The notes beneath the pieces were generated by a model that made no database searches, was not told the origin of the DNA, and saw only the letters and a list, made by a program, of their open reading frames with translations. Below are positions 5,601 through 36,319 of a stretch of 36,319 nt of DNA, one piece after another. The translations under genes and the position numbers were made by a program. The stretch covers positions 1 to 36,319 of the forward strand of contig JAPOTD010000123.1 in the NCBI GenBank assembly GCA_026709365.1, written 5' to 3'. How positions within the stretch are numbered: the first letter of the stretch is position 1; the number at the start of each line of letters is the position of its first letter. This DNA comes from Gammaproteobacteria bacterium (GTDB lineage Bacteria > Pseudomonadota > Gammaproteobacteria > Pseudomonadales > Azotimanducaceae).

Positions 5601-6200
5601 CAACAGCGTGGGGCAGAGAAAGAGAAAGACAAAGACGCCGGAGCCAAGGCAATTCAGGATTTGGCGAGATCCAAGGGCATCCGGCGCTTGCGCTGCACTG
5701 AACGATTGAAGGTCATTCCGATTGAGGATGATTCAGGCAAGCGCTACAAGGCATACAAGGGGGACAGCAATTGGGGAATGGAGATCTACGAGTATCCGCC
5801 CAGCCATGCTAGAGCAGGAAAGTGGGAGGGTCGGTTGATTTCCCGATTCAAAGCAAATCAGCGTGAGTTTAAGCCGGGTGAAACTTTCCGGCCCCATCCG
5901 GCTGCTCGGCTAGTGATGAGATTGCAGATCAACGATTGCGTTGAGATGCGCTGTGCGAACGGGGGACGCAAAAGCTACTACAGATTGCAAAAAGTATCTT
6001 CTGGCGTGTTGGTTTTCGCTGAGATTCACGAAGCCAACGTGGACGGCAGAGATCGAAGCAAGACTGATCCATACAGCTACACCCGCATTAGCCCTGGAAA
6101 GCTGCAGTCTCGCGAAGCAAGGAAAGTCCACATAAGCCCTTCCGGAAGAATAAGTTATGAAAATCGGAGCAGGCGCGGCATAGGCCGTCAAATTCCTTAG
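2697..6200 (+). CDS. cas9: CRISPR-associated endonuclease Cas9, type II-C
   Basis: A 1167-residue Cas9, the RNA-guided DNA nuclease of the locus. All nuclease motifs are intact. RuvC-I is YRLGLDVGTNSLGW with Asp11. An arginine-rich bridge helix (RRAARSARRRRDRFKQRR) follows near residue 60. RuvC-II is SVAIELGRDL with Glu603. The HNH core is VEVEHLIPFSRSLDD with His687 and a following Asn701. RuvC-III is DDHRHHAVDAIVV with His821 and Asp824. A CCPFSGRRI segment precedes HNH, as in other II-C proteins. The C-terminal PAM-interacting region ends with ARKVHISPSGRI. The length is near the upper end for II-C. The GTG at 2697 follows AGGGAAG by 5 bases; an ATG at 2706 is an alternative start. cas1 follows after about 100 bases. 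No csn2 or cas4 is present, which supports II-C. Confidence 0.97.
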   Translation: MEPMKYRLGLDVGTNSLGWCVLQLDDRGDPCGIADAGVRIFSEGRDNKSLATLAATRRAARSARRRRDRFKQRRNFLLRELTDARLLPEAGPERKSLEKLNPLKLRADALTRRLALWEVGRALFHLNQRRGFKSNRRDQSEEAGIGGVVSSSARLLLEHMGLIDPPMPSEEYKKLSPAEKKRTRRREAQTRNQALDKLKSDKHRSYGAFLLQRQQNGKPTRARPGAAADGKLYDVYPTRELYEDEFNKIWQAQAQHHPGEMTEAAKNRIHRAIFFQRPLKPQKRGKCTYMSAEDRTFRAMPSFQRYRIHQEVNSLEWRDSRQSHRVRDYPDARDAIVKLLEEVKAKNGQVPFSKMNTLLKRLDLAEGAITFNFEGSKRKGLDGNLTSSLMQHEDMIGPDWHAWPLERKDEFIDVLLNGTPQQQKRDRDWLEGGPRRTPQDGAADDKEVQKYLIERFSLDPQTAENCLSAPLKNDTANISLKAALLMLERLRDGIANSDTGEIELPLQNEAASAVAKEIDGFVDPHRKRGDDGKYELLTELPYYGEVFRDGRHIIPGTGNPQDDDKTRWGGVTNPTVHIALNQIRLVVNELIERHGHPHSVAIELGRDLPLGPQKRREIEREQKENQDRNEAHNKKLSELGQVPSTANRLRLFLWEQLDKDPAGRCCPFSGRRIGIADLFSSEVEVEHLIPFSRSLDDSRANKVVCMREANRFKGNRTPHEAFGDSPEGYQWHEIFERSGNLPHAKQWRFKPDAMEIWQMGKDAEFTSRHLNDTRYIGRLTREYLECVCHVDRIDVITGRLTALLRRHWQLPRKNRDDHRHHAVDAIVVGMTNRSLLQRMATAAKRIEGMEGNLAESLGPVFSPRKNGGDAGVPWQGFRDDVGVTVAGIAVSHKLKRKTLGQGRTAGQDSTDGQLHNDSAYGIVRGPDNQGLCEVVRRKPVAAIKGLDDVGRIRDMRLRVLLQVAFELAQQRGAEKEKDKDAGAKAIQDLARSKGIRRLRCTERLKVIPIEDDSGKRYKAYKGDSNWGMEIYEYPPSHARAGKWEGRLISRFKANQREFKPGETFRPHPAARLVMRLQINDCVEMRCANGGRKSYYRLQKVSSGVLVFAEIHEANVDGRDRSKTDPYSYTRISPGKLQSREARKVHISPSGRISYENRSRRGIGRQIP

Positions 6201-27693: not shown

Positions 27694-28593
27694 TCACGCC
27701 GCAGTCCCCGCGCGCAGCCAAGCCTGGGCCAGCAGCGCCAGCGCCAAGCCGCCGGCGATGGCTTGGCCGCTCTTGCCAAGCCGTCGGATGTCGAAGGTGG
27801 ATGCCCCCAAGCCCGCAGCCACCCCGGCGGCAAAGCCCGTGAAATGCGCGACCACATCGGTGCGCTCACCGCCCACGCCGGTGTAGGCGAGCAGGGCGAC
27901 GGCGGCGAACAGGGGCGCGAAGTTGCGCTTCCAGCTGCGCGCCTCGACCCGGCTGCGCCGCCACATGAAGGCCCCGGTCAGCCCAAGCGCCGCAAAGTTG
28001 GCGGTGGAGGCGCCCAGCGAGAGAAAGCCGGCGGGCTGAATGAAGGCGTTGGCCAGATTGCCCGCCGCGCCGCCGAGCAGAATCAGCAGCCAGCCGAACC
28101 CCGAGCCCAGGTAGCGGCCGGCAAAGACGCCGAACACCGCGCCGAACGCCGAGTTGCCGACGATGTGGCCGAGGTCCGCATGCAGCGTCAAGGCCGTGAA
28201 CGTCCGCCACCACTGGCCGTCGCGAACGAGCCCCGCGTTCATCATCCCGGACTCCCGCCAATCCCAGCCGAAGGCGCCCCATTCCTCCAAATTGGGCAAT
28301 AGCCAGATGACGGTGAGGAAGACCAACGCGCCGGCCCAACCCCGGTCGAAGGTGTGCAGCATGGGCGCGCGGCCTTCCGGATGCCGGTTCTCGGCCGCAA
28401 AGGCGCGCAGCTCAGCCTCGGCCCGCTGCGCCGCATCGGCTGGAATCAGGAGCGTCCAGACGTGATCGCGCCATTGGGTGCGGTGGGGAATCTCCATGGC
28501 GGCCAGCACCAGCGCCGCTTCGGTGACGATGCGGCGGTCGAGCGCGGACCGCAGCACCACCCAGTCCCCTTCCGGCACGCGTTGGCCGCTCAA
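27694..28593 (-). CDS. Rhomboid family intramembrane serine protease
   Basis: A 299-residue protein. About 90 N-terminal cytoplasmic residues (LVLAAMEIPHRTQW) resemble a DUF2007-like domain. About six or seven membrane helices follow. The active-site Ser196 lies in SLGASTANF (the usual GxSG is here GAST), and His250 in DVVAHFTGFAAGV. The loop HADLGHIVGNSAFGAVFG holds the conserved His and Asn of the oxyanion region. Rhomboids cleave membrane proteins within the bilayer. The TTG start at 28593 is 8 bases after the stop of the S9 peptidase gene, so the two are co-transcribed. The altered GxSG deserves attention; activity is likely but unproven. Confidence 0.85.
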   Translation of the reverse strand: MSGQRVPEGDWVVLRSALDRRIVTEAALVLAAMEIPHRTQWRDHVWTLLIPADAAQRAEAELRAFAAENRHPEGRAPMLHTFDRGWAGALVFLTVIWLLPNLEEWGAFGWDWRESGMMNAGLVRDGQWWRTFTALTLHADLGHIVGNSAFGAVFGVFAGRYLGSGFGWLLILLGGAAGNLANAFIQPAGFLSLGASTANFAALGLTGAFMWRRSRVEARSWKRNFAPLFAAVALLAYTGVGGERTDVVAHFTGFAAGVAAGLGASTFDIRRLGKSGQAIAGGLALALLAQAWLRAGTAA

Positions 28594-28601
28594 TCGCGCA
28601 C

Positions 28602-30530
28602 CTACCGCAAGTGCTTGCCCAAGAACCCAACGAAGGCTTCCGAGGCGGCGATGCGGTTCTCCCGACGGGAGAAGCCGTGGCCCTCGTCGGGGAAGACCAG
28701 GTATTCGACTGGGGTGCCGTTGGCCCTGACCGCGGCGACGATCTCATCGCTTTCCACCTGCAGCACGCGGGGGTCGTTGGCGCCTTGGATGACCAGCAGC
28801 GGCGTCTTGATGTTCTCGGCGTGGAACAGCGGCGAGATGCGGCGCAGGCGCTCGCCGTCCACGGCCGGGTCGCCCAGCTCGTCGAACAGCGCCTTGCGGT
28901 TGGCGCCCCACCAAGGCGGGATGGACTCCAAGGTGCGCACCCAGTTCATCACCCCGAAGATGTTGATGCCCACCTTGAACACGCCCGGCCGGAACGCCAG
29001 GGCGGCGCCGACCATGTAGCCGCCGTAGGAGCCGCCGATGATGCCGATGCGCTCCCCATCCACCCAATCGAGGCCTGCCAAGTAGCGTTTGCCGTACACG
29101 ATGTCGTCCAGATCAACCTCGCCGTGGCGGCGGTCGTCCATGTGGAAAAAGGTCTTGCCATAGCCTGACGAGCCGCGGTTGTTGGCGGCGAGGATGGCGT
29201 AGCCGTGGTTGACCAGATGCTGGATCGTGGCCGAGTAGCCGCGCCGGCTTTGGCCGCCGGGGCCGCCATGCACCCAAACCAGGGCCGGCGCCGGGTTGGC
29301 GGCGGAGGCCGCCTTGGGCCGGTAGAGGATGGCCGGAATCTCCAGGCCGTCGAAGCTCGGGTAGCGCACCACGGCGCTCGGTGCCAAGTCGGCCTCATCG
29401 ATCTCCGGGTTGGGCGCCTGGGTCAGGCGGCGGCTTTCGCCAGCGGCCAAGTCCACCACATAGACGTCGTTTGGCGAGGTGTCGGTGCTCAGCAGCAGCG
29501 CCACCTTCGACTCATCCCGCGAGAAGCGGATTTGACCCGGATTGCCCTCCGGCAGGCCCGGCAGCGCCAGCCAATCGCCAGTGGCGGTGTCCTTGATGCG
29601 CACGACGATGCGGGCGTCCTCGTTGACGCCCTGCACCAAGTACCGCCCGGAGCGCGAATGGAAGGCGAACACCAGGTCCCAATCGGCCTGAATCAACGGG
29701 GCCTGCTCGCCGGTGGCGGCGTCCCAGCGCCAAACCGCCATGAACTCGCGGCCTTGGTTCGAGCCGTAGAGCAGCGCGCCGCTGTCCGGCGTAAACCCAT
29801 GCACCGCGTGGCTGACGTTGCCCTCATGGGGCGTGATGTGGGCGGGCGACGCGTCGGCGGCCTCGCGGTCCAGGATGTGGATGTCGTTGTCGGCGCTGGA
29901 GTTCTCGCGCACCAGGGCCAGATAGCGCCCGTTTGGGGAGACGGCGCCCAGCCGCCAGTTGGCGTCGTTCTCGAAAAATAGCTCCCGCGCATAGCCATCG
30001 GCAGCGTAGCGGTACAGATCGAACACCGCGGCATCGCGCTCGTTGGTGGCCACGTGGAATGCGTCATCGGCCTGCGACCAGCCCATGAACAGGGCCTTTA
30101 CGCCTTCGCCGGGCGTCAGGTCGATGGCCTGCCCATCAGGTGCGAGGACATGGACGTGGTCGAGTTCATCCCCTTGGTTGTCGGCAGCGTAGAGAATGCG
30201 GTCGTCGCTCGGAAACCAGGACAGCGGGCGATGGGCGTTGTCCGCCGAGGCGGTCAGCGCGGTGGCCGGCGCACCGGACAACGGCAGCGCATAGGCGTTG
30301 AGCGCGCCCAGGGTGTCGGCGCCGATCAGCAGCCGTTGGCCGTCCGCCGACCATGCGTAACCGCCGGGCAGGCGGTAGGTCGTGGTCTCAAAGAAGGCGG
30401 CGGCGGAATAAGTCCTTGGCGGCTGGCCGTCCGTGGGCGGCGGCTGGCCGCACGCCGTCAGCAGCAAGCAGCATGACAGGACCAGGTGGCGCGCATTGGG
30501 CAGACAGCAGGGGATTCTCAAATCGGACAC
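28602..30530 (-). CDS. S9 family prolyl oligopeptidase-like lipoprotein
   Basis: A 642-residue exported peptidase. The start is a GTG at 30530 with TGAGG 5 bases upstream, followed by a lipoprotein signal ending LLLTACG (lipobox LTAC). A seven-bladed propeller region (GGYAWSADGQRLLIG, PNGRYLALV, etc.) precedes the catalytic hydrolase domain. The triad is expected at Ser501 (GGSYGGYM), Asp586 (GANDPRV) and His618 (DEGHGFSRRE). S9 enzymes cleave short peptides, often after proline or Xaa-Pro. The open frame runs on upstream for 80 codons through a 36-bp tandem repeat; that extension is not believed. It is followed by a coupled rhomboid gene. The proline-rich peptide gene lies 420 bases upstream on the same strand. 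Confidence 0.9.
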   Translation of the reverse strand: MSDLRIPCCLPNARHLVLSCCLLLTACGQPPPTDGQPPRTYSAAAFFETTTYRLPGGYAWSADGQRLLIGADTLGALNAYALPLSGAPATALTASADNAHRPLSWFPSDDRILYAADNQGDELDHVHVLAPDGQAIDLTPGEGVKALFMGWSQADDAFHVATNERDAAVFDLYRYAADGYARELFFENDANWRLGAVSPNGRYLALVRENSSADNDIHILDREAADASPAHITPHEGNVSHAVHGFTPDSGALLYGSNQGREFMAVWRWDAATGEQAPLIQADWDLVFAFHSRSGRYLVQGVNEDARIVVRIKDTATGDWLALPGLPEGNPGQIRFSRDESKVALLLSTDTSPNDVYVVDLAAGESRRLTQAPNPEIDEADLAPSAVVRYPSFDGLEIPAILYRPKAASAANPAPALVWVHGGPGGQSRRGYSATIQHLVNHGYAILAANNRGSSGYGKTFFHMDDRRHGEVDLDDIVYGKRYLAGLDWVDGERIGIIGGSYGGYMVGAALAFRPGVFKVGINIFGVMNWVRTLESIPPWWGANRKALFDELGDPAVDGERLRRISPLFHAENIKTPLLVIQGANDPRVLQVESDEIVAAVRANGTPVEYLVFPDEGHGFSRRENRIAASEAFVGFLGKHLR

Positions 30531-30612: not shown

Positions 30613-30774
30613 GAGCTGCTACGCAACTGCGTGAGCAGGCTCGCGTTTGAGTTGCTGCGCAACTGCGCGGGCGGGCCCGCGTTTGAGTTGCTGCGCAACT
30701 GCGCGGGCGGGCTCGCGTTTGAGTTGCTGCGCAACTGCGCGAGCAGGCTCGCGTTTGAGTTGCTGCGCAACTCA
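30613..30774. repeat. 36-bp tandem repeat, 4.5 copies
   Basis: Four units of exactly 36 bp begin at 30613, 30649, 30685 and 30721, then half a unit to 30774. Each has GAGTTGCTGCGCAACTG (arms GTTGC/GCAAC) and a second small palindrome such as GCGAGCAGGCTCGC, ending in GTTT. Units differ by a few bases. It lies upstream of the S9 peptidase start, on the same transcript side. It is not a CRISPR: units abut with no spacers. As 36 is divisible by three, it stays open in all frames and produces an artificial LRSNSNASPPAQ-type repeat protein. Confidence 0.9.
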
Positions 30775-30903
30775 GCATGGACGCAAAACGTGGCGATCGG
30801 CAGTCAAGTGCCCGGGGCCCTTGGGCACGGTTCGTTCGGCGTTTCGCTGGCGCAAACCTCCGCGTCCGTTGCGTGGACCGGCCTTCCGTTCCAGAAAACG
30901 CAC

Positions 30904-30936
30904 GCCTTGCGGGCCTCTCGACGAGGCCCGCAAGGC
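30904..30936 (-). terminator. Strong hairpin after the proline-rich peptide gene
   Basis: A perfect 14-bp stem, GCCTTGCGGGCCTC (30904-30917) with its complement (30923-30936), and a 5-base loop. On the - strand the hairpin starts 11 bases after the peptide stop and is followed after 6 bases by TTTT (30897-30894). It is probably the terminator of the peptide transcript. Confidence 0.7.
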
Positions 30937-30947
30937 GCACTCCAGCC

Positions 30948-31145
30948 TCACCAGATGATGGGCTGCCAAGGCGAAGGCAGCCGCGAGGACGGTTGCCCGG
31001 AAGGCGGCGGATGGTTAACCGACGCCGACTGGGCGGTCAGACCAGGGAAAGGGAATGGAGGCCGAAAGGTCGGTTCGTGCATTGGACTTGGCCATTGGAA
31101 GGCGCCGCCAACCAGTTGCATTTCAGTGTCATCGAGAGTCCGCAT
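30948..31145 (-). CDS. Proline-rich peptide with microcin V-like double-glycine-type leader (putative bacteriocin/RiPP precursor)
   Basis: A 65-residue precursor-like gene. The ATG at 31145 has AGGAG 6 bases upstream. The first 15 residues, MRTLDDTEMQLVGGA, match the spacing of double-glycine leaders: Leu at -12, Glu at -8, Met at -7, Val at -4, Gly-Ala at -2/-1. The leader of microcin V (MRTLTLNELDSVSGG) shares MRTL, the Glu and the Val-x-Gly. Such leaders are removed by the C39 peptidase domain of an ABC exporter. The predicted 50-residue core is unusual: about 14 prolines (PPFPFPG, HPPPSGQP, PSPWQPII), three Trp, no Cys, ending IIW. No exporter or immunity gene is in the window. A longer frame from 31226 exists but lacks a ribosome site. 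A hairpin terminator follows. Confidence 0.65.
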   Translation of the reverse strand: MRTLDDTEMQLVGGAFQWPSPMHEPTFRPPFPFPGLTAQSASVNHPPPSGQPSSRLPSPWQPIIW

Positions 31146-31337
31146 GGGTTTCTCCTTTGCGAGGTTGTTGAAGTTCGGAAGCCCAAGATGCAGGCGGGCC
31201 AAGCCAACCGCAATACCGCAGCCCAAAGCTCCAGCGACCCTTCAGAATGCAACGTCCCGACGATGGCAGCTTGGGGCCAATGGCTGCGCCCCCGTGCGAG
31301 CGTAACGCCGAGACAAGCGGGTTAAACTCTCCCGCCC

Positions 31338-31351
31338 CCATTGGCCAATGG
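31338..31351. promoter_or_regulatory. 14-bp perfect palindrome upstream of the acyltransferase gene
   Basis: CCATTGGCCAATGG is a perfect palindrome 12 bases before the ATG at 31364. It could bind a dimeric regulator or form a hairpin that covers the ribosome site; no function is known. Confidence 0.35.
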
Positions 31352-31363
31352 CCCCAACTCTCG

Positions 31364-32284
31364 ATGTCGAATCGCTCACCGCCCGTTCCCATCGCCGCGC
31401 CCCGGACGTGGCCCACATGGTGCCTCGTGGGGCTGGGCTGGCTCATTGCCCGGCTGCCTTGGACGGCGATCTTTCGCTTGAGCGGGCCGCTCGCAGGCTT
31501 GGCGTTCCGCTTCGGCGGTAGCCGCCGCCGAATCACCGAAACCAACCTGCGCCTGTGCTTTCCCGAACTCGGCCCGGCCGAGCGGCAAGCGATGGCACGG
31601 CGCGTTTTCGAGGCCGTGGCGCTGGGCGTTTTGGAGGTTTGCGTGGCTTGGCTGAATCCGCGGCGCGGCCGGCGGCACCGGGTCCGCCTCGAAGGGGTTG
31701 AGCACTTCCAAGCCGCCTTGGGCAAGGGGCGGGGCCTGCTGCTGCTCGGCGCCCACTTTGCGGTCATGGACATCATCGCCGCGCCGCTGGCCAGCTTGGG
31801 GCCGGTGGCCGTCATGTACCGCCGCAACCGCAACCCGGTCTGGGAATGGCTGCAGGTGCGCGGACGCCGCCACTACTTCACCGAGGTCCTGGAACGCAAG
31901 GCGCTGCGCCCGACCCTGCGCGCCCTCAAGGCGGGCCAAGCCATTTGGTACGCCGCCGACCAGGACTACGGCGCCAAGCACTCGGTGTTCGCGCCGTTCT
32001 TCGGCGTCTCGGCCGCCACCATCACCGCCACCGCCCAACTGGCCCGCCACAACGGCTCGCCGGTGCTGATGATGAGCCAGCACCGCGACCCGGCGGCGCG
32101 CAGCTGGACCATCCGCTTCGAGCCGCCGCTGGCGAACTTCCCCAGCGGCGATGCGCAGCGCGACGCCGCCGCCGTCAATCAGGCCATTGAAGCGGCCGTG
32201 CGCCGCGCCCCGGAACAGTACCTATGGCTGCACCGGCGGTTCAAGACCCGGCCGCCGGGCGAGGCGAGGCCCTACGCGCCATGA
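31364..32284 (+). CDS. LpxL/LpxM-like lysophospholipid (lipid A) acyltransferase
   Basis: A 306-residue inner-membrane acyltransferase. The catalytic HX4D motif is His131-Asp136 in LLGAHFAVMDII. Family features include an early hydrophobic segment (WCLVGLGWLIARLPW), RRITETNLRLCFPEL, the AVMYRRNRNPVWEWL segment, and the C-terminal PEQYLWLHRRFKTRP. LpxL/HtrB-type enzymes add a secondary acyl chain to Kdo2-lipid A. The start is set at the ATG at 31364; upstream in-frame codons from 31247 show no family similarity. The next gene, an MFS exporter, begins 43 bases downstream and may be co-transcribed. Its presence supports a Gram-negative host. Confidence 0.9.
   Translation: MSNRSPPVPIAAPRTWPTWCLVGLGWLIARLPWTAIFRLSGPLAGLAFRFGGSRRRITETNLRLCFPELGPAERQAMARRVFEAVALGVLEVCVAWLNPRRGRRHRVRLEGVEHFQAALGKGRGLLLLGAHFAVMDIIAAPLASLGPVAVMYRRNRNPVWEWLQVRGRRHYFTEVLERKALRPTLRALKAGQAIWYAADQDYGAKHSVFAPFFGVSAATITATAQLARHNGSPVLMMSQHRDPAARSWTIRFEPPLANFPSGDAQRDAAAVNQAIEAAVRRAPEQYLWLHRRFKTRPPGEARPYAP

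Positions 32285-35613: not shown

Positions 35614-36319
<706 letters not shown>

Follow-up and report, generated by a model that had tools for sequence, protein, structure and literature searches.

Class II microcins are the closest described systems to the peptide gene analysed here, and few are verified: a 2022 account puts their number at 10 (PMC9746304). Their double-glycine site "can be either GG or GA" (PMC9746304); the leader of microcin V (MccV) reads MRTLTLNELDSVSGG, and the MccV exporter passes varied small cargo (PMC10231218). Small proteins with a GG motif and C39-dependent secretion also occur as EbfG in Synechococcus elongatus, where they serve biofilm formation and need the C39 transporter; they are not known as bacteriocins (PMC4997328). 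The word proline is absent from the main text of PMC9746304. In a limited literature search, we found no description of a double-glycine leader followed by a Pro-rich core. Known ribosome-targeting proline-rich peptides, in turn, are strongly cationic and Arg-rich.

The window, by which we mean the whole stretch of 36,319 nucleotides analysed, belongs to a genome that we label G000; the other genomes of the same genus are G001–G008, nine in all. A sequence-only reading had proposed a small gene with a strong ribosome site, for which it named no strand. The gene is on the minus strand and the ribosome site is as described (Table 1). Leader and core were read as claimed, and the proposed likeness of the leader to that of MccV is borne out, as the MRTL start and the positions E8, V12 and G14 of the 15-residue leader are the same, with GA in place of GG. 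The leader would be expected to be cut after Gly14-Ala15.

Table 1. Features of the peptide locus and its neighbours, in window coordinates.
Feature	Position	Strand	Basis
Rhomboid protease (PF01694), neighbour outside the system	27694..28593	-	Pfam; in G008 without peptide gene
S9 peptidase (PF00326), neighbour outside the system	28602..30509	-	Pfam; in G008 without peptide gene
Hairpin, probable terminator	30900..30940	-	Fold and position
Precursor peptide gene, ATG to TGA, 65 aa	30948..31145	-	In-frame genus members, n = 7
Core peptide, 50 aa: 14 Pro, 3 Trp, 0 Cys	30951..31100	-	Sequence
Double-glycine leader, residues 1–15 (MRTLDDTEMQLVGGA)	31101..31145	-	Leader profile, 19.9 bits, and alignment
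Ribosome binding site AAGGAG, 6 nt before ATG	31152..31157	-	Sequence; GGAG before 7/7 members
Upstream box, -112 from ATG, common to other leader-type precursor genes	31239..31257	-	Best site of box profile in window
Divergent neighbour, lipid A acyltransferase family (PF03279)	31247..32284	+	Pfam; conserved neighbour in 4 loci

The far end of the window (36239–36319) is a long C run with few A or T, the contig continuing to 38853; the run is probably a sequencing or assembly artefact.

Scored against a profile made from other genes' leaders (53 distinct sequences), which had been gathered with an earlier profile that included Pro-rich leaders and are therefore incompletely independent, the precursor start (E 6.7e-5) ranks first among 2011 window start sites, the second reaching 11.2 bits. 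The best score among 111,274 starts in 60 shuffled windows was 11.0. A Pro-rich composition, by itself, is not rare in this DNA: 116 of 30,237 open 50-codon stretches hold at least 14 Pro, and 18 of those (three places) also hold at least three Trp. This frequency would suit a chance frame in GC-rich DNA, an explanation that we consider extremely unlikely given the leader score, the seven in-frame members described below, a leader pN lower than pS in the five nearest of them, and the conservation of the box, of the ribosome site and of the place of the hairpin. An antisense frame was ruled out as a real gene, having two stops in the G002b member. At the thresholds used, searches of NCBIfam and Pfam assigned the window peptide to no family, the Pfam MccV family included, and its relatives gave only sub-cut-off leader matches.

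Seven members, the window gene among them, are present in six of the nine genus genomes: G000, G007, G006, G002 (two genes), G001 and G005. Full-length matches were obtained in G007, G006 and G002, and a second G002 gene was found additionally; the members in G001 and G005, whose leaders are divergent from the others, were recognised by leader and position. All seven are in frame. The sequence-only reading had listed a want of homologues with a conserved leader, frameshifts in close relatives and a want of any C39 exporter as signs against its proposal; none of these was encountered, with the qualification that a near relative, G008, is without the gene. There, the acyltransferase side runs straight to the next gene, the site being present and the peptide gene absent. 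In G003 the contig ends near the rhomboid gene, and in G004 no leader was found in the 9-kb stretch around the rhomboid gene. A scan of genome contigs from 84,980 species, limited in sensitivity in that it missed the G001 and G005 members, returned four loci in three MAGs, which are the G007, G006 and G002 genes. Weak matches in other genera, most of them without a locus, were taken for composition noise, since a leader scan of loci L006–L036 yielded genus members only.

Leader pN is below pS in all ten pairs of the five nearest members (0.06–0.20 versus 0.18–0.69). Adding G001 and G005 gives a pooled leader ratio of 0.55, with pN above pS in two of the pairs (G006–G005 and G002a–G001). The core is faster-changing and variable in length, with a pooled pS of 0.62 and pN of 0.42 in the five nearest members, on an uncertain alignment. 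Its start follows [FW]xWP in four of the seven members and its end WxP[IV]IW in three. The Pro codons of the cores are mixed, which argues that the prolines do not stem from one repeated unit. Because seven members occur in six genomes with a conserved leader and a fast-changing core, we regard this, by comparative evidence, as a genuine gene for a secreted-type peptide and not a chance frame.

The lipid A acyltransferase gene, whose true start is probably internal to the mechanically called ORF, adjoins the peptide gene in the window, in G007, in G006 and at one G002 locus. In G001 and G005 the peptide gene sits between MFS and rhomboid genes. The other G002 gene lies at another place, where it diverges from a gene for a hydrophobic leader peptide; that gene has a membrane ORF downstream as an immunity candidate. 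Three loci could be measured against G008, and they carry 405, 421 and 414 bp of extra DNA, in which we saw the peptide gene with its box and hairpin, and no second gene above very small size; relative to G008, this is a gene-only insertion. The S9 peptidase and rhomboid protease predicted to come next on the same strand were confirmed by Pfam. As partners of the peptide they were ruled out: they are 87% and 90% identical in G008, which has kept them without the peptide gene, so that their nearness implies nothing. No modification enzymes were noticed nearby in the ORF lists inspected.

The hairpin after the stop codon, previously described as a perfect 14-bp terminator, is perfect over 15 nt rather than 14 (30903–30917 and 30923–30937, with a 5-nt loop; 18 pairs counting G-U), and its role as a terminator is only probable. 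It folds with -41.5 kcal/mol (z -5.75), and 0 of 200 shuffles were equally good. The T tail behind it is short (GTTTTC), and a terminator scan gave one site against 0.9 expected in shuffles, which is chance level, so that the call rests on fold and position. A GC-rich hairpin stands at the same place in four relatives, each modest (z -1.4 to -3.4). A scan for sigma-70-like promoters found none. Further along, at 30613–30792, lies a tandem array whose 36-bp units contain an inverted repeat (GAGTTGCTGCGCAACT), in 72-nt copies spaced 36 bp; the array has 10 matches in G000, on seven contigs besides the window's, and is an interspersed repeat.

For the comparison of cores, we used 73 of the 111 listed leader matches (all but 6 of the first 74, and 5 weaker ones in the genus). 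Dropping one precursor with a 5-residue core left 72 in the composition count, and dropping one with a short upstream stretch left 72 in the box test described below. At least 20% Pro was found in 10 of the 72 cores, namely six of the seven members, one of G004 and three acidic ones of genus g37; the G001 core has about 18%. Leader peptides outside the family (390 genomes searched) numbered eight, none of them Pro-rich. The G004 peptide (L168, about 3949 on the minus strand of G004:C119) has a Cys in its core start (VSGG/CYGGCPPSPWPG...), lies away from the conserved place and is preceded by no box. The acidic peptides (L131 +6238, L132 -2583, and L188; G229, G237 and G235), with leaders of the form MRQLNEAELLAV[ST]GG and 32–42% Pro, constitute a second Pro-rich core type in the same family. 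They resemble the window peptide in leader type, in small gene size and in having no immunity candidate downstream, and differ from it in a net charge of -9 to -15 and in having no upstream box.

The high Pro content with Trp, 27–39% Pro in the five nearest cores, is a likeness to proline-rich antimicrobial peptides, and the sequence-only reading had pointed to those that act on the ribosome. That likeness is not borne out: the net charge (K+R-D-E) is +1 in the window peptide and -1 to +5 across the seven, whereas the known peptides are Arg-rich, and short Arg-Pro stretches such as RPRP occur in only two of the seven cores. The nearly neutral core and the predicted leader-based export from the producer set the window peptide apart as well. 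SbmA was found in none of the nine genus genomes, which would protect a producer and so fits self-protection, yet is no evidence for it. Despite the Pro content and this absence, we think it very unlikely that the peptide is a bacterial counterpart of the ribosome-targeting ones. No hydrophobic stretch was found in the core. On the comparisons made here, we regard the product as truly a double-glycine-leader peptide, and its core as being of a new type.

When the regions 5' of the genes were aligned, a conserved upstream stretch was seen. The first seeds for this box were chosen by likeness to the Pro-rich consensus, which is circular, and a de novo search was therefore run on 14 precursor genes of the genus outside the set of seven. 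In 11 of them, sampling yielded a motif of 19 bp at -102 to -106; the 14 leave out the G002 hydrophobic gene (its intergenic region is common with a Pro-rich gene) and include one gene (G007:C31, 12628) with an 18% Pro core. The box is found at -100 to -113 before all seven members; shuffles equalled it in 0 of 500 cases for six of them and in 7 of 500 for G002a. On either strand of the 36-kb window, the best site is the one before the peptide gene, which scores 15.1, followed by 12.0; two sites in the 18-kb L010 score 14.5 and 13.3, so that the score alone is not decisive. When both groups were used for training, the resulting profile gave at least 13.7 in 22 of the 72 precursor genes, in every case at -100 to -116. 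Of these 22, five had been outside training, four being in two other genera (G013; G125, G025, G055) and the fifth the G002 hydrophobic gene; one further site scores 13.6, at -217. Before the exporter operon, no box was found (best -3.0). Elsewhere in the genus, L163 (G007:C31) and L164 (G008:C62) each hold two leader peptides in a row with a box before each, like two-peptide bacteriocins. Because the box precedes all seven members and many ordinary microcin-like precursor genes of these bacteria, the peptide gene is probably part of the set that is regulated with them.

A common box would also be in keeping with a ComC-like peptide pheromone, a signal of cell density that might also turn on the microcin set, and the G006 member has a ComC (PF03047) leader match of 16.8 bits, below the cut-off of 20.4 (G002b, 13.0). 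The window peptide itself has no match at E 0.1, its core is longer and more variable than we would expect of a pheromone, and no dedicated sensor was noticed beside the gene in the ORF lists. We consider a pheromone function improbable.

A search elsewhere in the genome for the C39-peptidase ABC exporter and HlyD-type adaptor, as the sequence-only reading had suggested, found them as an adjacent pair. The exporter is the one C39-domain protein in G000; it has 703 residues, of which 8–690 align with PCAT1 chain 4ry2, and the catalytic Cys, His and Asp motifs of C39 are apparently present in its N-terminus as judged by eye. Orthologues that are 56–93% identical, each with an adjacent HlyD, are present in all nine genus genomes. 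TolC-type OEP domains (PF02321) occur in three frames of G000. Exporter, HlyD and TolC-type genes are unlinked to the peptide gene, and the exporter must also serve at least one other G000 leader peptide, L161, which begins MKELTTQEMERTSGG...; its presence is a requirement but, for these reasons, not specific evidence. Pattern scans of L010 for a precursor gene beside the exporter gave no convincing leader. To judge from the leader and the genes present, the peptide is very probably exported. L161 (G000:C64, about 5655–5891, minus strand) is a hydrophobic microcin-like leader peptide; 120 nt downstream of it lies a membrane ORF of 136 aa, which is also found beside the G002 counterpart, and peptide and membrane ORF are likely to be a microcin/immunity pair.

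The locus is thus like the class II microcins in its leader and cleavage site, in a genome that encodes a C39 ABC exporter, a membrane fusion protein and a TolC-type protein, and in an upstream box held in common with microcin-like genes. It is unlike them in its Pro/Trp-rich core without a hydrophobic stretch, in the unlinked exporter, and in that no immunity candidate was found, either in the insertion or by the rule of a downstream membrane ORF. By that rule, a candidate follows 0 of 11 Pro-rich genes and 4 of 14 other precursor genes (one in G000), a contrast that is weak since the rule is crude and the numbers are small. As an immunity gene is a defining feature that we looked for in these places and did not find, the peptide is not filed as a class II microcin.

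A peptide without an immunity gene in the insertion or downstream, low in charge and without a hydrophobic stretch, might instead be exported through the C39 system for a structural or host-facing purpose, in a biofilm or matrix, or to bind host proteins through its Pro-rich stretch rather than to kill. The host might be an animal, perhaps a sponge. The biofilm role of the EbfG proteins speaks in the same direction (PMC4997328), the likeness being one of description, and Synechococcus belonging to another phylum. Since the box is the same as that of microcin-like genes, one of which in G000 has a membrane ORF downstream, and the core changes fast, we judge such a function unlikely, though less so than a pheromone.

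The explanation that we favour, and hold to be on balance somewhat probable, is a C39-exported, microcin-like antibacterial peptide with a new core type, regulated together with microcin-like genes. The C39 exporter, working with the adjacent HlyD protein and a TolC-type channel, would recognise the MccV-type leader of the precursor although unlinked to its gene, and would cut after Gly14-Ala15. The secreted product would be an extended, unmodified 50-residue Pro/Trp-rich peptide, co-expressed through the common box with the hydrophobic microcin-like peptides of the same bacteria. Most likely it would be directed at competitor bacteria; its core changes fast, and no immunity gene would be dedicated to it. 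More tentatively, and as a possibility that we would not yet call probable, the Pro/Trp-rich peptides may form a new class: antagonistic peptides, unmodified and C39-exported, against which the producer requires no dedicated immunity protein, its own target being different or absent, and which are switched on with ordinary microcins while their cores change rapidly.

With few class II microcins verified, a new core type matters, and a Pro/Trp-rich family behind the same leader and box would widen the C39 cargo known in Gram-negative bacteria. Such genes could be sought through the common box, independently of the core, and the empty site, together with the lack of a visible immunity gene, turns self-protection in these bacteria into a testable question.
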